A model generated the notes under the pieces. That model ran no database searches, was not told where the DNA came from, and was given only the letters and a program-made list of their open reading frames with translations. Below, in pieces: positions 1,175-23,011 of a stretch of DNA of 23,094 nucleotides. The DNA lies in contig JAFGCO010000051.1 of NCBI GenBank assembly GCA_016932575.1, forward strand, positions 1 to 23,094. Reading direction: 5' to 3'. The DNA is from a bacterium. Its GTDB lineage: Bacteria; Zhuqueibacterota; QNDG01; JAFGCO01. The position numbers were made by a program, and so were the translations under genes. The first letter of the stretch is position 1. Every line of letters starts with the position of its first letter.

Positions 1175-1226
1175 AGCTTTGTCATTTGACATTTAATACG
1201 TTTATATTTTAAACGGAAAACCAAAT

Positions 1227-4200
1227 ATGAAACACACATCCATTTTTATTATCCTTCTCAGTATATCAATGACTCTTCGTGCCCAGGAATGGCAGCATTA
1301 TACCAAAACCAACAGCGGATTGCCGGGCAATGACATTCTGTCGATTGCGGTTTCTCCCAGCGGGGAGGATATCTGGTTCGGCCTGGGATATGAAGAGATG
1401 GAGATCGGTCAGGGATCCGGAGGACGGGGGCTGGCAAGATACCATATGAGCGCAGATACCTGGGAAGCCTTTAATTTTCAGGACGGGCTGATCAGTGATA
1501 TTGTGGAAAAGGTCTTTGTGGGCTCTCGTCACGTATGGTTTTATACGGACAAAGGCCCCATGATGTATGATCTTGCCAATCAAACATTCCACCAGGTATC
1601 GGGTATCGGAAGCGTTCGTGATTTTGTATCCAATGATACGACCGCCTGGTTTGCTACTGGAAGCGGTTTGAAACAATACCATTTTAATAGAAAAACACTG
1701 ATTAATATCACCACTGAGCAGGGCCTCATCAGCAATTCCGTGAATTGTCTGTCTATGGAAGGCGACCAGCTCTGGATTGGTACGGAATGCGGACTCCAGA
1801 TTTATAATATTTCAACATTATTATTTGCCAATGCTTTTTTTGAAGAACTGGAATCGGCTGATATTCAGACCGTGTGTACAGATGCCTTTTATGTGTGGGT
1901 CGCCTGTCAGGATGGACTGCACAGAAAAGACCGGAAAACCGGGATCTGGGACGTGTATCTGCAGGGAAAAGAACTCCGTACAATGACTTCCGGACGAAAC
2001 CGGATTTATGTTGTGATATCCGGAGAGGGGATTAAGGAGTATGATTATTCTCAACACAAATGGCAGTCGGTGAGTACATCGGGCAGCGGATTGAACAGTG
2101 CCTCCATTGATGAAATCGGGGCCACGCCCTGGGGTTTATGGGTGGGAACCGGCAACGGCGCCTGGCATTACAGGCCCTGCGAGAATCCCTGGTCCAATTG
2201 GGATGGCAGCGATATCGGCATGAGCGCGTTTTTAAACACAGTGGGCGCGGACAATCAGTATGTATGGGTGGGAGGGGCGGATGGTATCAGCAGATATAAC
2301 AAGCAGGATCAGAAGTGGGATTATTTTAATGTCGGAGAAGTGACCGATCTTGAAGTGGGATCCAAGGGTGTTGTTTTTGGCGGACCGGACGGCAGAATAA
2401 AAACCATGAATAAAGAATCCGGAGAGATCATTTCTTCGGTTCCCTTGGATCCTTCCTTTAATAAGCCCATTGAGGATATTGAACTGGATGGAAATGAGAT
2501 CTGGGTGGCTTCCTTTTTTGCCACATACAAGGTGGTCGGTCATTCTGTGATTGAATACGATTTTGAAGATTATCTCATTTGGGGAAACGGGCCCGCTTCA
2601 GAGGGCTGTTCCGCGCTGGCTGTCGGCGAGGAATATATCTGGTTCGGTCCCACAGAAAACTTATTCGAGGGATTTCCGCGTTATGAAAGGGCGACCGGTC
2701 AGTGGAAAAATGACATTACCGGATTTGACGCGATCATATCAGAAATTCAATCCGTTGCTGTATATGATGATTTTGTCTGGTATGGCTCATTGGGCATTGA
2801 ACAGGATCCGGGACTTCATGTATTAAATAAGCATACTTTGGAATGGGACAGGGAATTTATTCAAGGGGATCTATTTTATCAGACCATATGGGCGATTACT
2901 CCGGATCCGTTTCGTAATCAGATCTGGTTTGGGTGTTCCTCCGGAGTGGTTCAATATGATTTTAACAGCCGGGAATGGAACGAATATAATGATGATACTG
3001 CCCTGCTGATTACCAATGATGTACAGGATATCGCTGCGGATCAAAACGCAGTCTGGTTTGTGACAGGAGGCAGCGGCATTGCGGGAAAGGAGGGCGGCGT
3101 CACCCGGTATGGAGACAATTATCCGCCTATGATTATCCACGCCCCTCAGAGTGAATCACACCCGGTGAATCAATCCATACATATTGAAGCGGAAATGGTG
3201 GATAACCTGCTGATTGTAAGGCCAATATTGCATTATCAACGGACAGGACAATCAACCTTCAATGAAATTCCCATGACCTACCAATTCGGCGATGTGTGGG
3301 CAGCGTCCATTCCGGCCGGTGACGTGAAAACAGAAGGCGTGTTGTATTATCTGAGCGTTTCCGACGGTTCCCGGGAGGGGTATCATCCCTGGATGTATCC
3401 TTCTTCGCCTGCGCATCAGATACCGGTTTATGATGATATTCCTCCGGAGGGATCTGTGGAACTTATGCCTTTGAGTGATTTCGCATATATCACAGATCAG
3501 GATACGCTTCGACTGACAGGCTCGGTTGACGGCACGGAAAGCATCCCGGTCATCGAGTCCATATTTTTTGTTGAGTACAACAGCCTGGGGATTCTCATTG
3601 CAGAAGATACCCTTTCAGCAGATTCCCTGAATCTTGCCGGCACAGACACGCATAAAACGTTTGATTATACTTTTAAAGCGCCGGATTTTCATTCGGGTGT
3701 TTCCGCTGTAGAAGTTCAGATGACAGTGAGTGAGTCGGACAGTGTGGAAGATCTGACATTCAGCTCAAATCGTATTTCCGTGATTGTGGATGAAGATATT
3801 CCGCTGGGCTTTATCAGTTTTCCCGGAGATCAGGCTGAGGTGGAAGCTTCGGTCCGTGTGATGGGAACCGCTTATGATTTGCATATGAAGGAGTATCGGC
3901 TCGAATATGCTGCGGGAGAATCACCCGCGGCGTGGCGTCCGATTCTGATCACGGATCCCAATCAAACCGTGGTCAATAATGTGCTGGGACAATGGTATAC
4001 GGTTGATTTGCCTGATAGTGTCTATTCTCTGAGATTGTCTGTATTCGACCTGGTGAACCGGGTGACACGCGATACAGTTCTGGTTCATGTGCAGAAACAG
4101 GCACCTTTACCCATCGCAACCCTGATCTCTCCGCAGGACAGTCTTTATGTGAATGGACTGGTTCCGGTTCGGGGATATGCCGCGGGCGAATCCTTTGCCT

Positions 4201-5372
4201 CCGCAAGCCTGAGATTAACCGGTACGGATCTGGACTCGGTCGTATTTACCGGGATTCAAAAAATGGAGAACGAGCTCATCACATTGCTGAATACGGCTTC
4301 TTTTCCGGACGGGTCCTGTGAACTGATTCTTTCTGTGGCAAACGAAAAGGATGAGGTTGAATCAGATACGGTTTCTTTGATTATTGATAATACGCCGCCG
4401 ACCGCTGCATTGACGTCACCTGGTCAGGATACGATCAATTGTGAAGTGCTGCTGGAGGGCGTGGCTGAAGATGTCAATCTGAAACACATGAATTTGAAAT
4501 ATGCGTCGATTCATCAAACCGATACCTCAAAATTTATTCCACTCTCAGATCATTTCGGTTTCTGGATGACCCTGCCGCTCGACGGGTGGCACACGGTTTA
4601 TCTGACTGTTGAGGATCAGGGTGGTCTGGTCAGCACGGATCAAAAGAATTATTATATACACAATCCCTCTTTTGATATGACCTCGGGATTTAAAAAACGA
4701 TGGGGACAGCATGAATTGTTAATCCCGCCCAATGGATACGCATCGAGTTCAATTTGTCTGATTCATCTGTATATGGAGGATTTTGATTTTCAAACAGGGG
4801 CATTTCATCCGACAGATTGTATTTTTGAATTGCGTTCAGATAAAGTCGATCTCACATTGAAAAAACCGGGAGTTCTTCAACTGTCTTTCAGCGGATTGGA
4901 TATCAATCAGGCAGATAAAGAGAGCCTGGCTCTTTTTTACTGGGATGAACCGGAATGGGAATTCGCAGGGGGCACTGTCAATCCGTCGGAAGAGGTCATC
5001 ATCGCTCCAGTCTCAAAGCTGGGCATTTACGGTGTGTTTGTTAATCTGGATGAATCCGTTTCAGCCGATGAAGAATGGAACATCGACTGCCAGCCCCGCG
5101 TGTTTTCTCCCGGAGGCGGAGGATATGACACACAGACTGCGGTTTCATTTTCGCTAAAAAAATCCATGGATGTCACGGTGAAGGTGTACAATCTCTCCGG
5201 CCGTCTGAAGAAATGTGTCCTTGAAAGCCGGAACATGAATCCCGGTATGAATGTCGTACATTGGGACGGACGGGACGGAAACGGTGCTGTTGTGCCCGGC
5301 GGTTTGTATATTGTTACAGTTAAGACGGATAGTAAAGTGATGAAGAAGACGGTAAGTGTGGTGAACCGGTGA
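1227..5372 (+). CDS. Giant secreted double-propeller protein with Ig domains and sorting tail (paralogue 1)
   Basis: 1381 residues. A signal peptide (about 1-19, ending LRA before QEW) is followed to about residue 628 by 14 short repeats. Each is centred on a W-[FIV]-x-[GTA] strand (DIWFGL, HVWFYT, QLWIGT, YVWVGG, QIWFGC, AVWFVT and others), the number needed for two seven-bladed propellers like the periplasmic half of hybrid two-component sensors. About 628-1150 holds a string of Ig-like domains, several opened by PP-x-[GA] linkers. About 1150-1275 resembles the pre-tail domain of the two downstream paralogues (ending in WEFAGGTVNPS and LGIYGVFV). The last ~95 residues form the sorting domain CQPRVFSPGGGGYDTQT through MKKTVSVVNR. 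There is no transmembrane helix or kinase. It is first in a probable five-gene operon. Its repeats are more diverged than those of the two paralogues, and ligand and function are unknown. Confidence 0.85.
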   Translation: MKHTSIFIILLSISMTLRAQEWQHYTKTNSGLPGNDILSIAVSPSGEDIWFGLGYEEMEIGQGSGGRGLARYHMSADTWEAFNFQDGLISDIVEKVFVGSRHVWFYTDKGPMMYDLANQTFHQVSGIGSVRDFVSNDTTAWFATGSGLKQYHFNRKTLINITTEQGLISNSVNCLSMEGDQLWIGTECGLQIYNISTLLFANAFFEELESADIQTVCTDAFYVWVACQDGLHRKDRKTGIWDVYLQGKELRTMTSGRNRIYVVISGEGIKEYDYSQHKWQSVSTSGSGLNSASIDEIGATPWGLWVGTGNGAWHYRPCENPWSNWDGSDIGMSAFLNTVGADNQYVWVGGADGISRYNKQDQKWDYFNVGEVTDLEVGSKGVVFGGPDGRIKTMNKESGEIISSVPLDPSFNKPIEDIELDGNEIWVASFFATYKVVGHSVIEYDFEDYLIWGNGPASEGCSALAVGEEYIWFGPTENLFEGFPRYERATGQWKNDITGFDAIISEIQSVAVYDDFVWYGSLGIEQDPGLHVLNKHTLEWDREFIQGDLFYQTIWAITPDPFRNQIWFGCSSGVVQYDFNSREWNEYNDDTALLITNDVQDIAADQNAVWFVTGGSGIAGKEGGVTRYGDNYPPMIIHAPQSESHPVNQSIHIEAEMVDNLLIVRPILHYQRTGQSTFNEIPMTYQFGDVWAASIPAGDVKTEGVLYYLSVSDGSREGYHPWMYPSSPAHQIPVYDDIPPEGSVELMPLSDFAYITDQDTLRLTGSVDGTESIPVIESIFFVEYNSLGILIAEDTLSADSLNLAGTDTHKTFDYTFKAPDFHSGVSAVEVQMTVSESDSVEDLTFSSNRISVIVDEDIPLGFISFPGDQAEVEASVRVMGTAYDLHMKEYRLEYAAGESPAAWRPILITDPNQTVVNNVLGQWYTVDLPDSVYSLRLSVFDLVNRVTRDTVLVHVQKQAPLPIATLISPQDSLYVNGLVPVRGYAAGESFASASLRLTGTDLDSVVFTGIQKMENELITLLNTASFPDGSCELILSVANEKDEVESDTVSLIIDNTPPTAALTSPGQDTINCEVLLEGVAEDVNLKHMNLKYASIHQTDTSKFIPLSDHFGFWMTLPLDGWHTVYLTVEDQGGLVSTDQKNYYIHNPSFDMTSGFKKRWGQHELLIPPNGYASSSICLIHLYMEDFDFQTGAFHPTDCIFELRSDKVDLTLKKPGVLQLSFSGLDINQADKESLALFYWDEPEWEFAGGTVNPSEEVIIAPVSKLGIYGVFVNLDESVSADEEWNIDCQPRVFSPGGGGYDTQTAVSFSLKKSMDVTVKVYNLSGRLKKCVLESRNMNPGMNVVHWDGRDGNGAVVPGGLYIVTVKTDSKVMKKTVSVVNR

Positions 5373-5398
5373 TCAGTGGCTTCCTGGGATGCCACTGA
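5373..5398. other. Intercistronic hairpin
   Basis: TCAGTGGC and GCCACTGA pair as an eight-base stem around a ten-base loop, right after the stop of the first large gene and before the next start. No T-run follows, so it is unlikely to terminate. It may set mRNA stability or lower expression of downstream genes. Confidence 0.5.
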
Positions 5399-5416
5399 AT
5401 AGTTGGGGTGAGTCTG

Positions 5417-8400
5417 ATGCGTCGATATCATATCATATTTATTTTATTTGTCATCGTTATCCAGTCTTTATTATTATATGGTCAATGGCAGGGGGCCTGG
5501 CTGACATTCACAGTCAAGGACGGACTTTCCAATAACTGGATAAGGGCCATCGTTACCGATCAGGATGGCACATTATGGGTGGGTACGGATGAAGGAATCA
5601 GTCAATATCAGAATGGCATATGGAAGACCGTTTATCCGGACGATATTCCGATCCATACGATTATTTATCATGGCTGTTGCGACAGCAATGGTGCGTTATG
5701 GTTTGCAACGTACGGCCGTGGCGCCTGTCGTTATTATCAAAGTCATTGGGAATTATTTAATACTGTCAATAGCGGGCTTCCCAATGATACAGTAATGACT
5801 GTTATTGAGGATCATAAAGGATCAATATGGTTTGGAACGTTTGGCGGCGGTGCCAGCCGTTTGACAAATGGATCCTGGGAAACATATCATGCGGATAACA
5901 GCGGTCTTGAATCAAATCATATTCTGTCCATACTCGAGGATCGGGAAGGCGCCTTCTGGTTCGGAACTTATCGGGACGGTGTGTTCAGATTAAAGGACCA
6001 TAAATGGGATCGCTTCGATACTGAAAACAGCGGACTGATATCATATGAAGTTCGGGATATCATGCAATCCAGTGACGGATCGATCTGGTTTGGCATTTGG
6101 GGAGCCGTTGACGCACCGCATGCAGGGGGGATCAACCGTTATCAAAATGGCGTATGGGAAACCCTCATTCCTTATGAAAGTGAGCTTGCAGGTCAGGGCA
6201 TCTTTAAAATATATGAAGATCGTGAAGGCGCTCTGTGGTTTGGTACGGGGACAGATGGTGTGTATCGATATAAAGACGGTGTCTGGAATATGTTCAATAC
6301 TTCTAACAGTGGCATCCCGGGTTACTTTGTGTCCTCTATATACCAGGATGATCAGGGTTCCCTCTGGTTCGGCTCAAACGGCGGTGTTTCCCAATATGAA
6401 ATGAAAGTGTGGGAAGTGATTGATACAACACGGGATGAGACGACCGCAAGCTGGATGATGGATATCTATGAAGATCGTCAGGGTGCAATCTGGTATTGTA
6501 AGGGAAATGGTGTTACCCGCTGTGAAAATGGCGCATGTTATACATTTGATACGGGTAATAGCGGACTTGCTGAAAATGATGTCAGTGTGATATTCGAAGA
6601 CAGTCAGGATGCGATGTGGTTTGGATTGTTTACACAGGGCATCAATCGATATAAAGACGGAAAGTGGCAGACCTTTAACCGGTATAACAGTGGTTTGGCC
6701 GGTTATAATGTCAGTACGATCATTGAAGATCATGAAGGGGTGATCTGGATAGGCACAACGGAAAAAAGTATTGAAGACCCTGGAGGTGTCAGCTGTTATT
6801 TAGGGAATACACAAAGCGCTTCAGAAGGCGACCTATGGAGGCATTACAATGTTGCCAACAGCGGGATTGTGAGTGATTCTGTCAAAGTGATTTTTGAAGA
6901 CAGCCGGGGTTCGTTTTGGTTCGGTACGCCGGGAAAAGGGATCAGCCGTTTTATTAACGATGAATGGATTACCTATAACAGATCCAACAGCGGACTTGTT
7001 CATGATTATATTCATTCAATCATTGAGGATCAGGAAGGCAGCATATGGATCGGTACCTGGGGAACAAAAGAGGATTACGGAGGTGTGAATCGATTTTTTG
7101 ATGGGAATTGGGAGACTTACAAGCCTTCAAACTGTGGTCTGGTATCACCCTATATTTTAGAAATGATGGAAGACAGCAAGGGGACTTTGTGGTTTGGAAC
7201 CAATCTCGGCGTCAGCCGATTGGAAGAGGGTTTATGGAGCCGGCTGAATATCGAGAACAGTCACCTCCCCAGCAATATTGTTCTGGCTCTTTTGGAAGAT
7301 CATCAGGGAGATTTCTGGTTTGGATGTGAAGGCGGAGGAGTTATCAAATACTATGGAGATGATACGCCTCCTGTGATTCGAATCACATCCACACCGGGCA
7401 GTCTGGTCGGTAATTCTACGCCGGTTTTCACTTTTCAGGCAAAGGATACACAAACACCGCAAGCTGACATTACATATTCCTTTGCCTTTGCCAGTTCGAT
7501 ATCCCAATACCCGGATTATTCGGCATTTTCTTATCTGACATTTGCCGAATCCTTTCCGCTTCTGACGGGAGAATATATATTTTATGTCAGGGCGCGAGAT
7601 ATTATGGGAAACATTTCTTGGCCGGCGACCTTTCCTTTCACGGTGGATATTATTCCTCCGACTGTGATTATTGATTCTCCAAAAGCAGGGAGCACTGTTT
7701 ATGATTCGATTTCCGTTACCGGTTCTGTTTTTGATGATTCTCCTGTTCGTGACTTTGGTTATTACAGCCTGATGTATAAAAAGGGGGATTGGTCTGAAGA
7801 CATTGAGGAATGGCATTCCATTGTCACTCACAACGGAAATGAAATTCGAAGCGACACATTGGGTATATGGGACGTGTCCGGATTAAGGGGATCTTATAAA
7901 CTTCAGCTTTTTGCCACAGACAGCCTGGGCCATGAAAGTCATGATGTTGTGACTGTTTATATTGTCGATGAGATTGGCAGGATCGATCGCAGTCAGGGAG
8001 GAAAACTCATTGACGATATCCTGGGTATTGTAATTGACTTTGCTCCCAATACTTTTAAAGAAGATCAGACTGTCCAGATCGTTCAATCAGCCGATCAAAA
8101 TCAATCGATCGTTGTTTTTGATATTTTCCCTGAAGATGTTCAGTTATTCAAACCGGCTACTGTCACAGTTACATATGCCGATTCGATATTAAACGAGCAG
8201 ATTGATGAAAACAGGCTGGCAATTTATTATTATGATTTATCCCTGGACCAATGGAAATATACGGGCGGAACAGTGAATACTCAAAAAAATACGATTTGTG
8301 TGTCAGTGAACCATTTGGGCTGTTATGGTGTATTTGAGACAATCGAAAATGTATCATTCGAAACATGGGCTGACATTGACTGCCAGCCCCGTGTGTTTTC

Positions 8401-8665
8401 TCCCGGAGGCGGCGGATATGACACACAGACCGCGATTTCTTTTTCGATAAAAAAATCCGCAGATGTCACGGTGAAGGTATACAACCTCTCCGGCCGTCTG
8501 AAGAAATGTGTCCTTGAAAGCCGGAACATGAATCCCGGTATGAATGTCGTACATTGGGACGGAAGAGACGGAAATGGTGATATTGTGCCCGGCGGTTTGT
8601 ATATTGTTACAGTCCAGGCAGGGGACAGAATGATGAAGAAGACGGTGTCGGTATTGAATAAATAG
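5417..8665 (+). CDS. Secreted double-propeller protein with Y_Y_Y-like, Ig and sorting domains (paralogue 2)
   Basis: 1082 residues from ATG 5417, chosen because GGGGTGAG lies just upstream; an in-frame GTG at 5408 is the alternative. After a signal peptide (about 1-23) come 14 clear two-component-regulator propeller repeats (DGTLWVGT, KGSIWFGT, EGAFWFGT, EGALWFGT, RGSFWFGT, QGDFWFGC and others), spaced about 45 residues, with the linker NSGLxxNxV. About 648-745 resembles the Y_Y_Y domain that follows these propellers in hybrid sensors (TGEYIFYVRARDIMGN), then an Ig domain (IPPTVIIDSPKAGSTV) and a ZU5-like domain (about 851-975, GGKLIDDILGIVIDFAP to GGTVNTQKNTICVSVNHLG). A sorting domain (986-1082) ends the protein in place of a membrane helix and histidine kinase. 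So it is a sensor-type ectodomain made as a secreted product. What it binds cannot be told from sequence. Confidence 0.87.
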   Translation: MRRYHIIFILFVIVIQSLLLYGQWQGAWLTFTVKDGLSNNWIRAIVTDQDGTLWVGTDEGISQYQNGIWKTVYPDDIPIHTIIYHGCCDSNGALWFATYGRGACRYYQSHWELFNTVNSGLPNDTVMTVIEDHKGSIWFGTFGGGASRLTNGSWETYHADNSGLESNHILSILEDREGAFWFGTYRDGVFRLKDHKWDRFDTENSGLISYEVRDIMQSSDGSIWFGIWGAVDAPHAGGINRYQNGVWETLIPYESELAGQGIFKIYEDREGALWFGTGTDGVYRYKDGVWNMFNTSNSGIPGYFVSSIYQDDQGSLWFGSNGGVSQYEMKVWEVIDTTRDETTASWMMDIYEDRQGAIWYCKGNGVTRCENGACYTFDTGNSGLAENDVSVIFEDSQDAMWFGLFTQGINRYKDGKWQTFNRYNSGLAGYNVSTIIEDHEGVIWIGTTEKSIEDPGGVSCYLGNTQSASEGDLWRHYNVANSGIVSDSVKVIFEDSRGSFWFGTPGKGISRFINDEWITYNRSNSGLVHDYIHSIIEDQEGSIWIGTWGTKEDYGGVNRFFDGNWETYKPSNCGLVSPYILEMMEDSKGTLWFGTNLGVSRLEEGLWSRLNIENSHLPSNIVLALLEDHQGDFWFGCEGGGVIKYYGDDTPPVIRITSTPGSLVGNSTPVFTFQAKDTQTPQADITYSFAFASSISQYPDYSAFSYLTFAESFPLLTGEYIFYVRARDIMGNISWPATFPFTVDIIPPTVIIDSPKAGSTVYDSISVTGSVFDDSPVRDFGYYSLMYKKGDWSEDIEEWHSIVTHNGNEIRSDTLGIWDVSGLRGSYKLQLFATDSLGHESHDVVTVYIVDEIGRIDRSQGGKLIDDILGIVIDFAPNTFKEDQTVQIVQSADQNQSIVVFDIFPEDVQLFKPATVTVTYADSILNEQIDENRLAIYYYDLSLDQWKYTGGTVNTQKNTICVSVNHLGCYGVFETIENVSFETWADIDCQPRVFSPGGGGYDTQTAISFSIKKSADVTVKVYNLSGRLKKCVLESRNMNPGMNVVHWDGRDGNGDIVPGGLYIVTVQAGDRMMKKTVSVLNK

Positions 8666-8755
8666 CAATATCTGTCTGGCCTTTCAATATGAAAAAGAAA
8701 GAAAAAAAGATTGAAGCCGGTTTAATTATATATTAAAAAAGGTTGCTGAGCTGAA

Positions 8756-11700
8756 ATGCGCATGAAGATCCATGATATTATTTCCGTTGTATTTGTGGCT
8801 GCTTTTTGTCATATTTTCGCCCAACAGGGTTCCTGGATCACATTTAACAAGGATGACGGCCTGGCTGACAACGAAGTCTATTGTATGATTCAGGATAATG
8901 AAGGCGGCTATTGGTTTGGGACAGTGAAGGGTCTCAGCCGGTATAATGACGGCCTGTGGCAAACATATACTACAGAGAACAGCGGTTTATTAAACGATGA
9001 AATCTGGGCCCTGATTCAGGATCGTGAGGGTACAATTTGGATAGGAACCTACGGGGGCGGTGTCACCTTATACAAAGAGGGTTTGTGGGAGACATTCAGC
9101 CTGACTGATTTTATCGATATTGATAAGTATTATGTGACTGACATTTATGAGAGCCGGGACGGAACCATATGGATTTGCACAGACAATACGGGTGTCTGCG
9201 AATATAAAAACGGAGAAAAGACCAATATAATGGCGGATATAAGCGGTTTGGCTGATAATTCTGTCAGAGCAGCCATTGAAGATCATGAGGGCGCGATGTG
9301 GTTTGCCACGGCTGAAGGGATCAATCAATTGAATCCTGATGGATCCTGGGAAACTTATAATGTGCTGAGCAGTGATTTTTCTACCAATAATATCTGGTCC
9401 GTTGCCGAAACTCAGGCGGGCGCAATCTGGGCCGGCGGTGACTTGGTGATGAGTCGATTGCAGGATAATCAGTGGAATCATTACTTCCCTTTGAATTATG
9501 GTTTGGGCTCCTATATCTGGACAGTGATGTGCGATCATGAAGGCAATGTATGGATGGGGTCGAATGACGGTGCCGCATATATCAAGGGAACCAGTTTATC
9601 CGTCTATCATCAGGCCAATTCCGGGTTATGTGATAATTGGGTCATGAAAGTTTATGAAGATCATACAGGGAACATCTGGTTCTGCACCCGTGATGGCGTT
9701 TCGAGATATCAGAAGAATATCTGGGTGACGTACGATTCGGCCAATAGTCCCATCTCAGATAATTATATCCACAATATTCTGGAAGACTATGAAGGCAATA
9801 TGTGGTTCGGTACCATGAATAGCGGCCTGGTCTGCTATCAAAAGTCAGGAGATTGGGTTTATTATAATGAGGAGAATGGGTCTCTGCCGTTCAATTCTAT
9901 ATTAACGATTTATGAGGATCATGAGCGTACGATATGGGCGGGTGTTTCCGGGTGGGGTGTTGTGCGATACGAAGAGGGTGAATGGCATAATTTCAACACA
10001 TTTAACAGCGGTATTGCTTCAAATATGGTTTACGCAATTTATCAAGACCGTGAAGGTGTTATCTGGTTTGGTACGAATACGGACCAGTGGGGTTACGGTG
10101 GATTGACGAAATACAAGGATGGAAAATGGGAGACGTACAATACAGTCAACAGTGATATCTGCCATAATGAGATTTTCACAATCACAGAAGACGTTCACGG
10201 CAACCACTGGTTTGGATCGAATAATAACGGTGTATGCAAACTGAGTCCGGATGGATCCTGGGTAACAATGAATACGCAAAATTCTCCCCTTGAAAGTAAT
10301 TTTATCAATAGAATTCTTGAGGACAGTCAACATGCTTTATGGCTGGGTACCTGGAATGGCCTCACCCGGTATCAAGATGATGAATGGTATACATTTACTA
10401 TCAGCAACAGCGATCTTCCCAGTGAGTTTATTTTTGATATCATCGAGGATAATACGGGTGCCATTTGGGTGGCTACAGGCAGCGGTGTGGCTCGCTTTAA
10501 AGATAATTATTGGAGTATATTTCGTGTCGATAACAGCGGGATTATGGAAAATTATGTCCCTTGTGTCTTTCAGGATAAGCAGGGTGATTATTGGTTCGGA
10601 TCAAATCATTCAGGGGCGACTTTTTACTCAGGGGATTATATGCCCCCGTTTATTGTCATCAAAGAGAAGCCGCAAAAGATAATCGGGAGTTCAACACCGT
10701 TTTTCTTTTATTATGGTAAAGATGATCAGACTGAAAATAATGAAATACGTTATTCGTATGCCATTGTTGATTCCGGTGTCAATCCGGAACAGTACTATGG
10801 TCCTTATTCATATGACTATTATCATTACAGTAATCCCTTAACAAGCGGGACGTATACATTTTATGTGAGAGCCCAGGATAAAATGGGCAATATCTCCGCA
10901 CCGGCCCAATATACATTCTGTGTGGATATTACGCCGCCTGTGATTATTATTGAATCTCCAAAACCGCACAGCACAGTTGGATCGATTTTTTCCATTACAG
11001 GTTCAATCTTCGATAATTCGCCCATTCAGGATTTTTATTTTTATGGGGTCTGCTGTGGTATGGGTGAAAGTGAAAACGAGGTCAGTGTCTGGGATACCAC
11101 AGGCATTTTTTATACAGAAATCCGAAATGATACCTTATGTACAATTTATACTCAGGGCAGACAAGGCACTTATCAGATAAAGTTTTTTGCGAGAGATTCT
11201 TTGGGACATGAAACCAAGAATGTTATGACAGTTTATATTGTTGAAGCTTCTCAACAAATCATTGCAAAAACCGGAGGATATGTCCGGAATGCTTCCAATA
11301 CGGTTGCTCTCTCTTTGCCTCCAAACAGCTTATCTGAAAATACAAATGTACTTATATGCGGTGTATCGCGGGACAATCTCGATTTTCAGGATTTAGATAC
11401 ATACAGGTATTCTGGAATTGGTTATGATATTTTACCCAGGGATTTATTGCTGAATAAACCGGCAGGATTATGCCTGGCCTATTCAGATTCGAATTTGATT
11501 GATGTGGAGGATGAAAAAAGACTGTGTATCTGTCATTATCATGATCGTGCCTGGCGCCTGGTTGGCGGGACGGTTGACCGGGATGTGAATACAGTTACGG
11601 CCGGGATTTCCGTATTTGGACGATATTGTATTTTTGAAAATTTGAGTTCCAATATGTCGCCCGATCGATACGCGGGTATGCAGTGCCAGCCGCGTGTTTT

Positions 11701-11968
11701 TTCTCCCAAAGGCGGCGGATATGATACCCAGACAGCCATCTCTTTTCCACTTGAAAAACCGTCTGATGTAACTGTAAAAGTTTATAATCTGTCCGGCAGG
11801 CTGAAGAAATGCGTTGCTGAAAACCGGTCCATGAACGAAGGCGTCAATGTGGTTCGCTGGAACGGCCGGGATGAAAACGGTGCTGTTGCCCCCAGCGGAT
11901 TATATATTGTTACGGTGCAGACGGACAGTAAAGTGATGAAGAAGACAGTGAGTGTGGTGAACAGATAG
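8756..11968 (+). CDS. Secreted double-propeller protein with Y_Y_Y-like, Ig and sorting domains (paralogue 3)
   Basis: 1070 residues; signal peptide about 1-22 (ending IFA before QQG). Fourteen propeller repeats follow (GGYWFGT, EGTIWIGT, EGNVWMGS, EGVIWFGT, QGDYWFGS and others), then a Y_Y_Y-like domain from about 627 (SGTYTFYVRAQDKMGN), an Ig domain (TPPVIIIESPKPHSTV), a ZU5-like domain from about 831, and the sorting tail from about 975 (CQPRVFSPKGGGYDTQT). Layout and repeat number match paralogue 2, so the two arose by duplication. The tail is the most diverged of the three (CVAENRSMNEG for CVLESRNMNPG). ATG 8756 has only a distant purine run (AAAAAAGG) upstream; ATG 8762 is possible. It lies 90 bp after the previous gene and 37 bp before the barrel gene. 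Confidence 0.87.
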   Translation: MRMKIHDIISVVFVAAFCHIFAQQGSWITFNKDDGLADNEVYCMIQDNEGGYWFGTVKGLSRYNDGLWQTYTTENSGLLNDEIWALIQDREGTIWIGTYGGGVTLYKEGLWETFSLTDFIDIDKYYVTDIYESRDGTIWICTDNTGVCEYKNGEKTNIMADISGLADNSVRAAIEDHEGAMWFATAEGINQLNPDGSWETYNVLSSDFSTNNIWSVAETQAGAIWAGGDLVMSRLQDNQWNHYFPLNYGLGSYIWTVMCDHEGNVWMGSNDGAAYIKGTSLSVYHQANSGLCDNWVMKVYEDHTGNIWFCTRDGVSRYQKNIWVTYDSANSPISDNYIHNILEDYEGNMWFGTMNSGLVCYQKSGDWVYYNEENGSLPFNSILTIYEDHERTIWAGVSGWGVVRYEEGEWHNFNTFNSGIASNMVYAIYQDREGVIWFGTNTDQWGYGGLTKYKDGKWETYNTVNSDICHNEIFTITEDVHGNHWFGSNNNGVCKLSPDGSWVTMNTQNSPLESNFINRILEDSQHALWLGTWNGLTRYQDDEWYTFTISNSDLPSEFIFDIIEDNTGAIWVATGSGVARFKDNYWSIFRVDNSGIMENYVPCVFQDKQGDYWFGSNHSGATFYSGDYMPPFIVIKEKPQKIIGSSTPFFFYYGKDDQTENNEIRYSYAIVDSGVNPEQYYGPYSYDYYHYSNPLTSGTYTFYVRAQDKMGNISAPAQYTFCVDITPPVIIIESPKPHSTVGSIFSITGSIFDNSPIQDFYFYGVCCGMGESENEVSVWDTTGIFYTEIRNDTLCTIYTQGRQGTYQIKFFARDSLGHETKNVMTVYIVEASQQIIAKTGGYVRNASNTVALSLPPNSLSENTNVLICGVSRDNLDFQDLDTYRYSGIGYDILPRDLLLNKPAGLCLAYSDSNLIDVEDEKRLCICHYHDRAWRLVGGTVDRDVNTVTAGISVFGRYCIFENLSSNMSPDRYAGMQCQPRVFSPKGGGYDTQTAISFPLEKPSDVTVKVYNLSGRLKKCVAENRSMNEGVNVVRWNGRDENGAVAPSGLYIVTVQTDSKVMKKTVSVVNR

Positions 11969-12005
11969 CTAGTCATTTGTATTTTCAGTTCAGGAGGAAC
12001 GATAA

Positions 12006-14531
12006 ATGTATCATCATAAACGGTTTTGCATTTGCATGACATTTTGCGTACTTCATGCGTTCAGCATTTATTCCCAAACCCGTGACCAGATTTTTGTGGG
12101 TGCACGGCCCATGGCCATGGGGGAGACATTTGCAGGTATCGCAGATGATGGAAACGCCCAATACTGGAATCCCGCTGGTCTGCCTCATATCAATCATTAT
12201 GAGATAAATTCCATGCATGCGGATTTATTCAATACGGATATCAAAAATAATTATTTTGCCTTTATGGTTCCTTTTACGGACCGTATTGCTGTGGGATTGG
12301 ATTGGTTTAATATCGGATTTGATGATGATGAGCTGGGTTACAGTCAAAATAAATTCGATTTATCTTTGGCCTACAAAGTTTCCGGCAGAATTTCAATTGG
12401 ATCGAATATAAGGCATTTCAGAACGGAGACCCGCCTGGATGGTATGACAGAAGCCGATGGAACAGGGTGGGGAGCGGATTTGGGACTCCTTTATCTGTTT
12501 TCTCCAAACTGGAGAATAGGGATTATGGCGCATGATCTGATTGAGACAACAGTTCATTATAACGGAGGAGGCAGTGATAAAATCTATGGAAGGAATCTCC
12601 GTTTTGGAGCCTCCTATAAACCGTTTCCTGAACTGCTTGTGGCGACAGATGTTGATGATCGGATTCATCTGGGATCTGAATATCAGCTGTTTGATCTGTT
12701 TGCATTGCGCGCCGGTTTTCAGAAAGATCTGGTTACCCGGGAAAGCCCCACTTATTCCTTGGGAGCAGGATTCAAATGGCAATTTATCAAAATAGATTAT
12801 GCTTACACACTTTCTCCGGTTCTGGAAAATACCAGCCGATTTTCGGTGGGTTTTTATTTTAACCTCTTTCCGTCCAAAGTAAGAATTCAGAATATACGGG
12901 TGAACGAGATTTTTCCCTCTCAATATAAACATTACATCAAGCGTCCTTTTGGAACCGTTTCACTGATTAACATCAGTGAAAGACCCATTCAGACCAAACT
13001 GAGTGTATTTGTTCCAAAAATTATGGATGAACCCACGGATACAACCATTATTGTCCGTCCAAAAATAACAGATGATTATGATTTAAAAGCCGTAATCAGT
13101 GATGTTGTTCTCGATATTCATGATGATGTGGCCAGTCAGGTTTCTGTAGAAGTTTCATATAAAACCGAGAGGAAAACCTATTCAGATAAATACAGTACGC
13201 CCTTGATTATTTATAATAAAAATGCCATTCAATGGGCAGAGGGCGTCGCTTCGGCAGCTTCCTTTATTACAACCACCAGCGATGGAGTGCAGAGATTCTC
13301 CAGACAGAGCCTCATCGATGCGCAAACAGAATACCGTACATTTGCTGATGATAAATTGATAAAAGCAATAAACATCTTTAATGCACTTCACCTTTACGGC
13401 ATACAGTATATTGAAGATCCGTATTCTCCCTACAGTATCGTATCCACAACAAAAAAAGCTGTGGATAATATTCAATATCCGGTAGAAAGCCTTTCAAGAA
13501 AAGCAGGAGATTGTGACGATCTTACCGTTTTATATGCAGCAATGCTTGAATGTGTTGGTATTGAAACTGCATTGCTGGATGTTCCCGGGCATCTGTTTCT
13601 GATGCTGAACACAGAAGTGCTTGAGAATCAGCAGCTTGCTTTTGGTTTGGATCCAATGAATTATGTGGTTTATCAGGGGATGGTCTGGATTCCGATTGAA
13701 GTCACGCTGATTGACCAGTCTTTTTATAAAGCCTGGCATTCAGGTATTGAAAAATATTATCAGTATCATGATTTAAAGCAGATAAAAATTGTCCCCGTGC
13801 ATCAGGCCTGGCAAGGTTATCCGGCTGTTCATGTTGATGCGGATATTGAGTCGGTGACACTAAATCCATCTATGCTTTCTCAGAAAATTCAGTCTGATAT
13901 TAATCAAATCCGTCATGATCGTGAAGAATTCATCGATTCAAGGATCCTTCAGCTGAGTTTGTCTGATGAGGAGTACTTTAAAAGGTCAAATGAACTGGGA
14001 ATTTACTACGCACTTTCAGGAAGAAAAGATGAGGCCAGCCAAATATTTTCAACAGCAAAAAAACGGATACCGAATGCGGCGGTAACGAATAATCTTGGCA
14101 ATACTTATATGATTCAAAACATGCTGGATTCCGCATTGGTGTGCTATCAGAAATCTCTTGAGCTTGACCCGGAAGACGGCGGCACGTATGTCAACATGGG
14201 AATTACATTGCTCCTGAGCGGTGACACTTTATATGCGGACCGGATGTTTTCAGAGGCAGTCAAACACTATAAAAATTTGGTGGAACTCTATAATCATATC
14301 GGTATCTCAGAAGAAAAATCATCACGGCAGAAGGGCAAAATTGAGGATCCCAATGAAGCCGTACTGGTCATGAAGATCAATGAAGTGAAATCAGAGGAAA
14401 AAACAGGACTGCCTTCATTGGATATGACTTCAATCCTTGATAATTTCAGCGAATCTTATGTCAGGGGCAAATTAAGCCAGTTATTGACCCTTGATCAAAT
14501 TGAAAAGAACCTGTACTGGAAGTTCAATTGA
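12006..14531 (+). CDS. PorV/PorQ-like outer-membrane barrel fused to a transglutaminase-like domain and TPRs
   Basis: 841 residues; AGGAGG lies 9 bases before the ATG. After a signal peptide (about 1-23), residues 24-290 begin IFVGARPMAMGETFAGIADD and NAQYWNPAGLPHI, the hallmark of the PorV/PorQ-type barrel family of the outer membrane, and continue as alternating beta-strands. After a linking region (290-440) comes a transglutaminase-like cysteine-protease fold. Cys503 sits in KAGDCDDLTVLYAAML, His529 in PGHLFLML and Glu565 in WIPIEVT, where classical members often have Asp. About 655-760 holds at least two to three TPRs (NNLGNTYMIQNMLDSALVCY, YVNMGITLLLSGDTLYADRM). In type IX secretion PorV is a shuttle and anchor partner for proteins with C-terminal sorting domains, and three such proteins are encoded just upstream. 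The enzymatic domain should lie on one face of the barrel, probably periplasmic with the TPRs; its activity is unproven. Confidence 0.82.
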   Translation: MYHHKRFCICMTFCVLHAFSIYSQTRDQIFVGARPMAMGETFAGIADDGNAQYWNPAGLPHINHYEINSMHADLFNTDIKNNYFAFMVPFTDRIAVGLDWFNIGFDDDELGYSQNKFDLSLAYKVSGRISIGSNIRHFRTETRLDGMTEADGTGWGADLGLLYLFSPNWRIGIMAHDLIETTVHYNGGGSDKIYGRNLRFGASYKPFPELLVATDVDDRIHLGSEYQLFDLFALRAGFQKDLVTRESPTYSLGAGFKWQFIKIDYAYTLSPVLENTSRFSVGFYFNLFPSKVRIQNIRVNEIFPSQYKHYIKRPFGTVSLINISERPIQTKLSVFVPKIMDEPTDTTIIVRPKITDDYDLKAVISDVVLDIHDDVASQVSVEVSYKTERKTYSDKYSTPLIIYNKNAIQWAEGVASAASFITTTSDGVQRFSRQSLIDAQTEYRTFADDKLIKAINIFNALHLYGIQYIEDPYSPYSIVSTTKKAVDNIQYPVESLSRKAGDCDDLTVLYAAMLECVGIETALLDVPGHLFLMLNTEVLENQQLAFGLDPMNYVVYQGMVWIPIEVTLIDQSFYKAWHSGIEKYYQYHDLKQIKIVPVHQAWQGYPAVHVDADIESVTLNPSMLSQKIQSDINQIRHDREEFIDSRILQLSLSDEEYFKRSNELGIYYALSGRKDEASQIFSTAKKRIPNAAVTNNLGNTYMIQNMLDSALVCYQKSLELDPEDGGTYVNMGITLLLSGDTLYADRMFSEAVKHYKNLVELYNHIGISEEKSSRQKGKIEDPNEAVLVMKINEVKSEEKTGLPSLDMTSILDNFSESYVRGKLSQLLTLDQIEKNLYWKFN

Positions 14532-14542
14532 AAGTGATCCAT

Positions 14543-17500
14543 ATGAAAGGAAAGTATATAAAGACTATTTTACTGATGTTAATGTCAGGTTCATGCTTCA
14601 CTCTCAGCAGCCAGATGATGCCGGAGATCGTTGTGCAGAGCAGTCATGTGAGTGTGGATAAGATCCATTTAAGTCCTGATGAGACCTGTGTGGCATCAGT
14701 TGGGGATCATGAAATACGGATATGGGACTATCGTACGGCGCAATTATTGGCGTTTAGATCTTTCGAATCAGGCGAAAATATTTTTTGGATTTCAGAAGAG
14801 TCTTTATTGCTGGTGCATTCGCACCCCAAAGGCTGGATAGAAATTGAGGAGTGGCGATGGCGCGAAGACCGATGTATCCCTGTTAAATATGGTTCAGAAA
14901 TGATGCCCTGGGGCGTAATAAAATGCAATCAAAAAATACTCGTCGGGTATCTGATACAAACTCAGAGGGATGATCATAATCAAAATTGTGTGCTGGAATT
15001 AAGAGAGGCTGTATCGGGCGAATTGTGTATCTCAGTGGATGGACACAGCAATTTTTTTCAACGTATCCTGGGTTACAATGAACGTGAGGATTTATTGGTC
15101 ACTCTCGGCGAATCGGCTGGCGGCCAGATCCAGTGTCTGGTATGGCGGGCGGGTGAAAATCGGATCATGAAGACAATTCCGATACCGGATGAGATGCATG
15201 GAACCTCTGTTAAAGTTGATTTGACTCCGGATTGCAAAACCCTCGTATTTTCAGGGAATAAAAAAGATGGGCATATGACGATGTTCTTTTCCCCTGTTCC
15301 GGACGGGCGTGTTATTGGTATTGAAAAGTTGCCGGCTTCGGATCGATGCATGATTCAGTTGCCGCCTGAAAATGACGGCGTTTTCTTTATTTCAAATCGT
15401 TTTGAGGAAAATCAATATTCCATCTGTCACCGGAAGTTTGACGATGATAAAATATCGGTTTTTTTTCATTGCGATTATCCGATGCATTGTTTTCGGATCA
15501 ATAAAAATAAAAATGATATTTTGATCGGCACTGTGCAAAATTCTTTTCAGCATGCAAGTCTGACCCGGTACAGTTATCCGTATGGGGTAAAAGAACAGTC
15601 ATATGGTGTTAAAACGCAGAGTGCTTTCGGGATTTATGGATATCGTTATAAGGATCAATGTATTATTGATGTGGATGAAGTGATCGCCCAGCAGTGGTCC
15701 GTTTCTGAGGCCCAGCCAAAAAAACAGTTTTTCATTGACTCCACAAATAATGCTATAAATGGCTTTTCTATATCCTCAAACGGGGAGTTTGTTGTTCAAT
15801 ATTCCAGAGACAATGAAACCATAATAAGACAGCTGGAATCAGGGGAAACATATCAAACACTTCCAGGGCCGAATATCCCCTCGCAGTCAAGAGTCGCCGC
15901 AGTGGGCAATAACGGCCGGTTTATTATTACCGGTGATCATGTACCACCTGAATTATACGGTTTTTTTAATACGATAAAGAAATCAAAGGATCGGTCTGAA
16001 TCTCAAGCCAATGTGTGTTTATGGGATGCGCTTACTGGCAAAAAATTATTTGATCTGGATTATGGTGCTCCGGCTTACAAAGTCGGTTTCAGTCTGGATG
16101 GACGCTACTGTTATGCGACTGTGGGACAAAGGATCATTATTGAAAATGATAAAATGTCATCAAGACGGTATACCCTGGGCCATTATATTAAAATCTGGGA
16201 AACAGAGACAGGTATACTTTTTTTTGAATTTCCTGCCGGAGTGGTATGGGATCGTGGTCATTGCATCTGGGCATCACCTGTATCAGTTATTGCCATGAGT
16301 GAGAATAATCAATATCTGGCGTTTCTGTCGCTTGAAGGGAAGACCGGTTATTTAAATGTGATCGATTTGAGTCAGAAACAAATGATGATTAAAAAGCCAT
16401 GTCCTTTGTCTTTTGTCGATTGTGCAGCCCGGCCCGCTTCATTATTATTCGATGGTACGTCTGAACATATCATTCTGGGAACCACGGATTCAGCTCCTTA
16501 TCTGCAGAGTTTTGAAACAAAAACAGGCCATGTTGCCTATGTGTTTCAATCGCAGATGTGTCCGGTTCAGGCCAGCGGAAATGCCCTGGGTTTTTTTAAT
16601 AAGGATCAGCAACTGGTTACTCTGGGGCAGGATAACAAAGTGCGAATATACAACATGCTTCGAAAAAGCATCCCTGTGACTGCACTCACTTTTTTTGACG
16701 GCAACTGGATTTCATGGGCTCCCAACGGGTACTTTCATGGTTCTGTGGAAGCAGAAGACTATGTGGGATGGAAATATAAAAATCAGATGGTTACTTTTAA
16801 GCAATTCAAGAATAAATTTTATCATCCTGATGTTGTTATAAAGTATATATCAGGAGATGCCGTGGGTGATGCAACTATTCAACTCCCGAATCCTCCTTCA
16901 GTAAAAATTGTTCAGCCGGCAAACCAGGATCGGTTTCAATCTTTTCAGTGCAATGTCCGGATTTGTGCACAAGATGATATTGAAGTCATGGATATCAAAC
17001 TTTACATCAATGGAAAAGAGATTTTGAATGATCATCATCTTGATGCACTTGAAATAAATCGTTCTTCTTACGGAAAGCTGGAACTCACGGGTTCTGTTGC
17101 CCTGTACCAGGGAGTGAATAAACTGACAGCCGTGGCTTATGATAATGAAGGGAACATGAGTCAGCCTGCATATGTCGACCTTGTTTGTGAAAAAGAAAAG
17201 GGGAATGCATCCAGGTTGTTTCTTATCATGATCGGCATTGACCGTTATCATCATTGGGAGTATCAGGATTTGAAAACAGCAAGTCATGATGCAGTCGGGC
17301 TTGCGCAATTTTTCGGGGCTCAGGAAAAAAGATTATATGAAACAGTGTATGTGGATACCTTGATTAACGAAAATGCAACTCCTGAAAATATTAAATTGGC
17401 TTTTCAGGAACTGCCGGATATGTATGCTGAGGATGTGATCATTATATTCATGTCGGGTCATGGTGTTCATGGATCGGACGGAAAATATTATTTCTGTACT

Positions 17501-17983
17501 TCAGAATCGAATCCTTCCAACCTGATGAAGTCCGCATTGAGCTGGGCTGATTTTGAGAAATTTCTGATTCAACTTGATGCAGGAAAGATTCTTTTATTGC
17601 TGGATACCTGCCATTCAGGGGATATTTTAAACAGAGTGCCCGGAGATCGTTTTGCAGAACATATTTCAAAGCATACAGCCATCGTATTTACATCCTGCAA
17701 GGGTGCGGAAACAAGTTTTGAAGATCCGGAGCTTGGTCACGGGCTTTTTACTCATGTGATCTTGGACGGACTCAAGGGAAAAGCAGATTTAAAACCGGAT
17801 GATTTAATCACCATGAGTGAATTAAAGACTTATGTCGAACTCAACCTGCCTTCTCTGGCAAAAGAGTATATTCAAAAGGCTCAGCGGTTGGGCCAGCTGA
17901 GAGGCACAAATGTCTCCATGACCCCCTATACACCGCGGTTGGAGCGGTATGCGGATTTCCCCATTGCAGTCAGGTTGCCATGA
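14543..17983 (+). CDS. Secreted WD40 - Ig - caspase (peptidase C14) protein
   Basis: 1146 residues from ATG 14543. A TTG at 14528 overlapping the previous stop, with GGAAG upstream, is an alternative start. Signal peptide about 1-23 (LLMLMSGSCFTLSSQ). Residues 25-720 are WD40-type repeats (DHEIRIWDYRTAQLL, VCLWDALTGKKLF, IKIWETETGILFF, NKVRIYNML), ending with NWISWAPNGYFHGS, a block common in bacterial WD40-caspase proteins. An Ig-like domain follows (about 782-885, PPSVKIVQPANQ). The caspase domain (about 888-1115) has LFLIMIGIDRY, the catalytic His973 in FMSGHGVHG and Cys1023 in LLLLDTCHSGD, so the protease looks intact. Family members cut after Arg/Lys or Asp in signalling and stress responses and are mostly cytoplasmic; export of this one is noteworthy. 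It is the last gene of the operon, next to the barrel gene. A role as processing protease for the sorting-domain cargo is inference. Confidence 0.88.
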   Translation: MKGKYIKTILLMLMSGSCFTLSSQMMPEIVVQSSHVSVDKIHLSPDETCVASVGDHEIRIWDYRTAQLLAFRSFESGENIFWISEESLLLVHSHPKGWIEIEEWRWREDRCIPVKYGSEMMPWGVIKCNQKILVGYLIQTQRDDHNQNCVLELREAVSGELCISVDGHSNFFQRILGYNEREDLLVTLGESAGGQIQCLVWRAGENRIMKTIPIPDEMHGTSVKVDLTPDCKTLVFSGNKKDGHMTMFFSPVPDGRVIGIEKLPASDRCMIQLPPENDGVFFISNRFEENQYSICHRKFDDDKISVFFHCDYPMHCFRINKNKNDILIGTVQNSFQHASLTRYSYPYGVKEQSYGVKTQSAFGIYGYRYKDQCIIDVDEVIAQQWSVSEAQPKKQFFIDSTNNAINGFSISSNGEFVVQYSRDNETIIRQLESGETYQTLPGPNIPSQSRVAAVGNNGRFIITGDHVPPELYGFFNTIKKSKDRSESQANVCLWDALTGKKLFDLDYGAPAYKVGFSLDGRYCYATVGQRIIIENDKMSSRRYTLGHYIKIWETETGILFFEFPAGVVWDRGHCIWASPVSVIAMSENNQYLAFLSLEGKTGYLNVIDLSQKQMMIKKPCPLSFVDCAARPASLLFDGTSEHIILGTTDSAPYLQSFETKTGHVAYVFQSQMCPVQASGNALGFFNKDQQLVTLGQDNKVRIYNMLRKSIPVTALTFFDGNWISWAPNGYFHGSVEAEDYVGWKYKNQMVTFKQFKNKFYHPDVVIKYISGDAVGDATIQLPNPPSVKIVQPANQDRFQSFQCNVRICAQDDIEVMDIKLYINGKEILNDHHLDALEINRSSYGKLELTGSVALYQGVNKLTAVAYDNEGNMSQPAYVDLVCEKEKGNASRLFLIMIGIDRYHHWEYQDLKTASHDAVGLAQFFGAQEKRLYETVYVDTLINENATPENIKLAFQELPDMYAEDVIIIFMSGHGVHGSDGKYYFCTSESNPSNLMKSALSWADFEKFLIQLDAGKILLLLDTCHSGDILNRVPGDRFAEHISKHTAIVFTSCKGAETSFEDPELGHGLFTHVILDGLKGKADLKPDDLITMSELKTYVELNLPSLAKEYIQKAQRLGQLRGTNVSMTPYTPRLERYADFPIAVRLP

Positions 17984-18442: not shown

Positions 18443-19894
18443 TCAAAGAAAATTTAAAATACAGAATGCTGCTGACACTATTAAAAATATAGCGCATAAA
18501 AAAGCAAAATAGTCGCCCAGAACAGAGTAGATGGTTTTTACTCCTTTTACAGGAACATCTGATATCATCATATGCTCAGAACTGCTGAAATAATCCAATC
18601 TTGACAGAACTTCACCCTTAAAGTTAAATGACGCTGATAATCCATGCCCTGTTGACCTGACCATATTGAATCCATACTCGATTGTTCGGGACGCTGCAAC
18701 AAAAGTATGGTAGGGTGAAATTTCTTTCCAGTCATTGCCTGGCACAAGCATCATATCAATGTCGCTTTTTCGAATTTGATTAATGAGTTTTGGAAAATCC
18801 ATATCAAAACAAATGGCTGAACAAATTCTGCCATAAGGAGAGTCAAAATATTTTAGTTTTCCATCCCCATAAATCCTTTTTCCATACATCGGTTTGGCTT
18901 TATAATATTCAGCCACAACCTTCCCCTCCGGTGATATCCAGACCATTTTATTTTTAGCAGGCATCTGATTATTCCTGGCCTCCTCTGTGATCAGAGCCAT
19001 TGAAAGACCAATGTAAATACTGTCTCTTGATGCGATTCGTTTAATCTTTTCAAGATAATCCTGTTCATTCTCGTGCCAGATCCCCAGTAAGGTTTCCTGT
19101 CCAAATATGATTTTAGCGCCTGCCTGAACAGCTTTACCACATGACTCAATAAAGCTTTGACCTATCTTGTCATATAGTCTGTCAAACTCTTCCGTTTCAG
19201 ATATTGAATGAAATTCTCTTTCAAGGTTTTTATCTAATGTCACTGAGGCGATTCTTACTGTATCAGTCTTTTGGGATATTAAGTTCAACCTGATTTGCCC
19301 GAATAGTACCAAAATAAGTAAAGTAATGCCGTAAAGCAATGCTCCTTTTTGTGCTTGTTTTATTTCAAAACCATGATCCCATAACCAATTGATAAATGAG
19401 GCGGTCCAGGTTGTAAAGAAAATGATACCCCAGTTGCCTGTGACCGAAGCTATTTGTAAGATTGGCAAATAAGATTGCGTATGAGCCAATGAACCAAACG
19501 AGCCGGATGGAATTATGGATACAACAATGAAATCGATAACGACGACCGTTGAAGGATATACAAATGTCCTTATAATTCCTTTTATTCTGGCAGAGAGAAT
19601 TCGATTTATAAGATAACTCAATGATGTAAACAGACTCATCATAAAACAGACCACATAATAAAAAACACCTGACATTGGCATCATTCCTTTCCAGATAATC
19701 ATATTGGAAATCCATAATGCCAATAGGATGAGCAAGAATCCTTTGAATGGTTTTTTAGCACTGTAAAAATGGATCAGGAAAACAGGCGCCATAAACGTTG
19801 CGATCGGTAAAATCCATCTGCCGTTTGCAAAAATCAGAAAGATAAATCCTGTTAGTAAATACAGGAAAGAATATATTTTTTTATTGTTAACCAA
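18443..19894 (-). CDS. Lnt-like membrane acyltransferase / nitrilase-fold hydrolase
   Basis: 483 residues. The start is TTG at 19894, chosen because AGGAGA sits 7 bases upstream and no ATG fits. The N-terminal ~200 residues are several membrane helices. About 210-450 is a carbon-nitrogen hydrolase domain with the Glu-Lys-Cys triad placed as in apolipoprotein N-acyltransferase: Glu267 (KIIFGQET), Lys332 (EYYKAKPM) and Cys362 (SAICFDMDFP). A last helix lies at 460-480. Lnt adds the third acyl chain to lipoproteins in the inner membrane; length and layout agree with it. Lnt's usual VPFGE stretch after the lysine is missing (MYGKRIY instead), and FGQE replaces the common PE motif. It could therefore be a diverged second copy or a related amidase rather than the housekeeping enzyme. 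Confidence 0.75.
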   Translation of the reverse strand: MVNNKKIYSFLYLLTGFIFLIFANGRWILPIATFMAPVFLIHFYSAKKPFKGFLLILLALWISNMIIWKGMMPMSGVFYYVVCFMMSLFTSLSYLINRILSARIKGIIRTFVYPSTVVVIDFIVVSIIPSGSFGSLAHTQSYLPILQIASVTGNWGIIFFTTWTASFINWLWDHGFEIKQAQKGALLYGITLLILVLFGQIRLNLISQKTDTVRIASVTLDKNLEREFHSISETEEFDRLYDKIGQSFIESCGKAVQAGAKIIFGQETLLGIWHENEQDYLEKIKRIASRDSIYIGLSMALITEEARNNQMPAKNKMVWISPEGKVVAEYYKAKPMYGKRIYGDGKLKYFDSPYGRICSAICFDMDFPKLINQIRKSDIDMMLVPGNDWKEISPYHTFVAASRTIEYGFNMVRSTGHGLSASFNFKGEVLSRLDYFSSSEHMMISDVPVKGVKTIYSVLGDYFAFLCAIFLIVSAAFCILNFL

Positions 19895-22957: not shown

Positions 22958-23011
22958 TATTCCCTCCATATATGTTTAAATTAAATTTTAAAACAACTCT
23001 AAAGGGTATAA

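Follow-up and report, generated by a model that had tools for sequence, protein, structure and literature searches.

When the open reading frames of the window, the entire 23,094-base contig of a draft genome (4.41 Mb, 72 contigs), were listed, five same-strand ORFs (A to E) were confirmed as real and as forming one operon. They encode an exported propeller protein with an Ig-like region and a sorting tail (A; 1227..5372, +), a Reg_prop propeller protein with Ig-like domains and a sorting tail (B; 5408..8665, +), another Reg_prop propeller protein with Ig-like/Y_Y_Y-like domains and a sorting tail (C; 8756..11968, +), a PorV-family outer-membrane barrel with Ig-like, transglutaminase-like (TG) and TPR parts (D; 12006..14531, +) and an exported protein with WD40, Ig and caspase (C14) parts (E; 14528..17983, +). 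Assignments were made from ORFs and domain profiles (A, B and C), from profiles and structure comparison (D) and from the ORF, profiles and hydropathy (E). At the listed starts the intergenic gaps are 35, 90, 37 and -4 nt, the last becoming +11 nt when E is begun at an alternative ATG (14543). By consensus matching alone, which is weak evidence, a promoter-like match was observed 5' of gene A (1179..1208, +) and no terminator-like sites were found in the three short gaps of the operon. A protein of the 23S rRNA intervening sequence family, a four-helix bundle, is encoded upstream of the operon (713-1135). The opposite strand carries an apolipoprotein N-acyltransferase-like protein (18443-19894, -; CN_hydrolase, under the Lnt cut-off) and a Kelch-propeller protein (21590-22969, -), whose standard type A sorting tail differs from the tails of A, B and C.

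The FlgD_ig sorting tails of the three propeller proteins occupy positions 5085..5369 (A; CQPRVFSP...KTVSVVNR), 8378..8662 (B) and 11681..11965 (C) on the + strand. When the tails were aligned, those of B and C were 86% and 81% identical to that of A; the last 95 residues of the three proteins share 73-86% identity, whereas the remaining bodies share 26-35%. Nucleotide identity drops abruptly directly 5' of the tail (for A-B from 0.80-0.98 to 0.35), and by this pattern the tail behaves like a cassette exchanged or homogenised between neighbouring genes. The A-B tail cassettes reach 98% nucleotide identity in a 60-nt window while the bodies diverge. With the type A cargo model (TIGR04183, cut-off 23 bits), C scored above the cut-off (31.4 bits) and A and B slightly under it (21.0 and 21.9 bits). 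The PorZ model (NF052228, cut-off 260 bits) gave 42 (A), 86 (B) and 106 bits (C), none of which reaches the cut-off, and these scores come via the propeller repeats. Protein A also matches a tailed propeller protein of genome G069 at 284 bits. In an alignment of 20 tails, PR was present in all, mostly inside QPR.(F)SP and equally at loci without a caspase, and most tails ended near V.N[KRN].

The barrel of D (residues 26-289; 12081..12872, +) was aligned by VIA-align to the PorV of a substrate-bound type IX secretion system (T9SS; 8gl6_F) with Z 29.1 and rmsd 2.6 over 262 residues, FadL being equally near. A score of 106 bits against NF033709 (PorV_fam, cut-off 90) places D in the PorV/PorQ family, and its 51.6 bits against canonical PorV (NF033710) are below the equivalog cut-off of 250. 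Residues 405-600 (13218..13805, +) form a TG domain with C503 (13512), H529 (13590) and E565 (13698). We hold this assignment with moderate confidence, as the match to PF01841 is 17.5 bits, under the 23-bit cut-off (Pfam E 0.005), and Foldseek gave an E-value of about 1e-3 to TG2. The matches of the fold search with this part were filled by the Ig-like sandwich, and they speak neither for nor against a TG fold. By sequence alignment, the Cys-His-Glu triad is retained in 24 of 25 D proteins. Profiles and structure comparison place TPR helices at residues 643-765 (13932..14300, +). From the barrel topology, the C-terminal half of D (TG-like and TPR) is predicted to be periplasmic.

The tail of A was searched in the 11 genomes carrying D, with 29-117 tails matched per genome. 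Its best match adjoins D in eight of the ten other genomes; in one more (G069) the D-adjacent tail ranks second, the top-ranked tail being on a different contig. The D-adjacent tail was best in G012 (120 bits, next 54), G044 (98, next 52), G278 (74, next 47), G138 (68, next 45) and G362 (55, next 40). In G077 the tails at three D loci scored 92, 89 and 58 bits (next 47), the best tail of G063 is near D with one gene intervening (84 bits, next 50), and two tails of G057 (76 and 72 bits, next 43) lie in divergent orientation within about 8 kb of D. The two best tails of G080 are on a contig without D, D itself being at a contig edge. The D-adjacent cargo bodies vary (Reg_prop, FG-GAP repeats or a 393-aa protein, some having no recognised propeller) and thus the similarity of the tails exceeds whole-protein orthology. 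Shared operon inheritance explains part of this similarity; judged from the rankings, the tail and the barrel of D seem to form a cognate pair in different phyla.

Protein E scored 43 bits with Peptidase_C14 (cut-off 21.4) and has the His/Cys dyad, which places it in family C14; by alignment and sequence, the codons of His978 to Cys1028 span 17459..17611 (+). A signal-peptide-like stretch can be read at its N-terminus. Hydropathy revealed no internal transmembrane segment in E, the domain profile search no CHASE2 domain and the PorU model (NF033707, cut-off 420 bits) no match, and E bears no sorting tail. The E protein of G012, likewise downstream of D, is 34% identical over 1119 positions and keeps H978 and C1028; when 82 genomes were searched, no full-length E was found in the phylum outside these two genomes. 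Three more caspase genes lie in a row elsewhere in this genome (G000, contig C14; L040 11781-16133 to L041 5181), the first with WD40; two T9SS-tailed proteins are nearby and a D-like gene is absent. The sequence-only reading of this DNA had described five same-strand genes with gaps of 11-90 bp (11 with E at ATG 14543), a sorting domain common to three proteins, a PorV/PorQ-like barrel and an exported caspase with intact His/Cys, and all of this agrees with the profiles and alignments; the PorZ scores of A, B and C, the TPRs of D and the genome-wide T9SS parts were absent from it.

Genes close to D were counted at 24 distinct full-length D loci with readable neighbours (the near-identical L091 and L092 were counted once). 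A CHASE2 gene was close by in 15, a caspase in two and neither in seven (L090, two loci each of G185 and G159, G321 and G350), all seven being more diverged. CHASE2-sigma-54 activators were observed in G057, G063 and, two genes downstream, in G138, which is outside the phylum. CHASE2-CHAT proteins with intact His/Cys were found in G044 and at three G077 loci, and the CHASE2 protein of G069 is cut off by the contig end. In other phyla, including loci labelled Neomarinimicrobiota and Gemmatimonadota/Latescibacterota, a class III cyclase is fused to CHASE2. From the CHASE2 density in the phylum's D genomes, a locus would have a CHASE2 gene within 5 kb by chance with a probability of 0.5-1.2%. The loci are related and not statistically independent; the stronger argument is that the arrangement is conserved between phyla whose D proteins share about 30% identity.

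A maximum-likelihood tree was drawn for 25 D proteins; it grouped the two caspase loci together (100/100), and their sister group (93/93) consisted of the phylum's sigma-54 loci and one CHASE2 locus lacking an assigned output. The cyclase loci and the CHAT loci formed their own clusters, each containing one output-less D. Most simply, the caspase would be a replacement of a CHASE2 output, a direction that we infer from a midpoint-rooted tree with four long rows. Hydropathy gave the CHASE2-CHAT proteins a single membrane segment at the N-terminus and two or three in the centre, which together with the usual CHASE2 topology predict a cytoplasmic CHAT. The inner membrane would then separate the sites of action of the two clan CD outputs (CHAT and E).

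Two Gemmatimonadota loci (L109 4903-9576 and L126 6941-11593) encode a single chain that joins a Reg_prop/Y_Y_Y sensor to TG-TPR. Eight genomes have a short exported TG paralogue (about 530 aa) no more than 5 kb from a CHASE2 gene. This Rosetta-stone fusion and the second TG paralogue beside CHASE2-sigma-54 support a link between propeller, TG and CHASE2. The short paralogue loci (L015/L043 8223-9938, L193, L194, L195, L196, L200 and L201), all of this phylum, have a CHASE2-sigma-54 gene near and conserved small neighbours; FecR was considered as a member of this cassette and dropped, as there was no Pfam match. NHL-TPR-TG or similar proteins of Proteobacteria/Nitrospira adjoin CHASE2-cyclases at L098, L099 and L125, and at L100 such a protein adjoins a PAS histidine kinase. 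We rejected the idea that TG-TPR proteins always lie beside CHASE2, as the majority of those from Proteobacteria and spirochaetes in the set do not.

Since the relatives have membrane signalling proteins at the place of the caspase, the locus reads as a signalling cassette with swappable outputs and not as a private display machine. We give an even chance to the five genes being a cross-envelope signalling cassette with a periplasmic caspase as its local output. An undescribed class of surface receptor, in which a T9SS sensor is tail-docked on a PorV-type barrel and a TG/TPR arm drives interchangeable outputs, here a caspase, is a tentative proposal to which we give a little less than an even chance. 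The regular type IX system of the cell would export A, B and C, which would remain at the surface with their common tail docked on D's PorV-like barrel, as we infer from the cognate pairing and the PorZ/PorV precedent. Ligand on the propellers, which the sequence-only reading had proposed as surface sensors or adhesins (the sensor role fits this scheme), would alter the state of D, and its periplasmic TG-like/TPR part would act on the output partner. In the relatives, that partner would be a CHASE2 protein of the inner membrane with a sigma-54 activator, a CHAT protease or a nucleotide cyclase as its cytoplasmic half; here and in one relative it would be the exported periplasmic WD40-caspase. 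With E exported and periplasmic, the local output would be periplasmic proteolysis. The seven D-like loci without CHASE2 or caspase, the presence of the caspase variant in two genomes only, an E without a membrane anchor to carry its action to the cytoplasm and the moderate TG assignment count against the signalling reading.

A possible though unlikely alternative is that D is a specialised shuttle and anchor for propeller adhesins, as SprF is for type B tails, and that assembly or envelope stress, not a ligand, is what the CHASE2 or caspase gene monitors. Cognate tail-barrel pairs are known (PMC12618676), and the pairing of A's tail with D and a tail that is an exchanged cassette would suit such a shuttle. 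However, it leaves unexplained why a periplasmic TG/TPR part with conserved catalytic residues is fused to D, and why propeller-TG fusions occur without a barrel.

The full-length canonical PorU of this genome (C6:284383-287616, 916 bits, GHG then Cys) lies away from the operon and PorU scored above the cut-off (NF033707, 420 bits) in 10 of the 11 D-carrying genomes, thus D loci coexist with the regular sortase. Each of these genomes also has a regular PorV candidate, close to full length, that lies apart from D; the best of this genome (C45:78915-80030, 249.2 bits) is marginally below the cut-off of 250. This genome contains about 150 other type A tails and 12 PorV-like matches. In nine of the 11 D genomes there are 10-29 matches to PorV-like barrels (2 and 4 in the other two), a strong expansion, and certain of these barrels may serve specific cargo tails only.

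These counts bear on the proposal of the sequence-only reading, a dedicated and self-contained unit for processing and display, with the caspase in a PorU-like role for its own cargo. Such a unit would account for the dedicated tail-barrel pair and for the combination of PorZ-like, PorV-like and clan CD parts, which the PorU-PorV-PorQ-PorZ attachment complex also has (PMC8545088), and the conserved PR of the tail would suit orthocaspases, which cut after basic residues (PMC6426788). With a canonical PorU elsewhere, however, the caspase need not replace it. Most relatives have intracellular signalling outputs in its place, and the CHASE2 outputs, predicted to be cytoplasmic, could not cut tails outside the cell. 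The PR is also conserved at loci lacking a caspase, and E, having no sorting tail, should stay in the periplasm, whereas the tails come to lie outside. We concluded that a PorU-like caspase is unlikely and consider the processing unit as a whole improbable. The part of the claim that stands is co-inheritance with matched cargo tail and barrel (8/10 genomes), and the case for this pair is stronger than the earlier reading was able to know; in the related genomes, tailed cargo was found beside D, but the full-length caspase only here and in one relative. Least probable is the alternative that the caspase acts as an effector of cell death or defence which phage or envelope attack triggers from the surface. 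Clan CD outputs do recur (caspase, CHAT) and the PADLOC caspase and SAVED_CHAT models match weakly, but these matches are confined to the catalytic domain, a known defence partner is absent, E is exported and many relatives have regulators, not killers.

Of the tested systems, that of Sinorhizobium meliloti is the closest analogue for barrel-to-CHASE2 signalling as proposed for the cassette; in it the outer-membrane receptor NsrA feeds CHASE2 adenylate cyclases (PMC7529298, PMC13001267). There too, an outer-membrane barrel protein is required for perception by inner-membrane CHASE2 cyclases. However, the accessible portions of these two papers do not describe a T9SS tail, propeller cargo or a caspase, and the likeness of NsrA to D is one of function. 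In the T9SS attachment complex, PorZ is a propeller protein with an uncleaved tail (PMC8545088), and that complex likewise joins a two-propeller tailed protein, a PorV-family barrel and a clan CD protease. D adds the TG/TPR part, the protease here is a tail-less C14 WD40-caspase, PorU is separate from the cassette and the caspase is swapped for CHASE2 proteins in relatives. A barrel gene adjoining its own tailed cargo is shared with type B CTD and PorP/SprF (PMC12618676), whereas D belongs to the PorV family and comes with a FlgD_ig/type A-like tail, extra periplasmic domains and an output gene. A surface tailed protein also relays a signal inward from PorA to PorXY-SigP, but through other proteins and without a D-like hub (PMC7712824). 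A CHASE2 histidine kinase with a LysM/FecR operon resembles the cassette in linking a CHASE2 sensor to a periplasmic partner gene, but no barrel, propeller or TG-like part is reported in the accessible part of that paper (PMC5192318). A literature search on CHASE2 with transglutaminase, CHAT, FecR and type IX secretion, covering mostly papers outside subscription, returned no published description of the cassette.

If the signalling reading is true, bacteria with a T9SS would sense the outside via secreted sensors that are still tied to a barrel, and the alternation of caspases, CHAT proteases, sigma-54 activators and cyclases at one genomic position would be explained. The cassette also offers a tail-barrel pair beyond type B/SprF and gives a defined place to look for the role of exported bacterial caspases.
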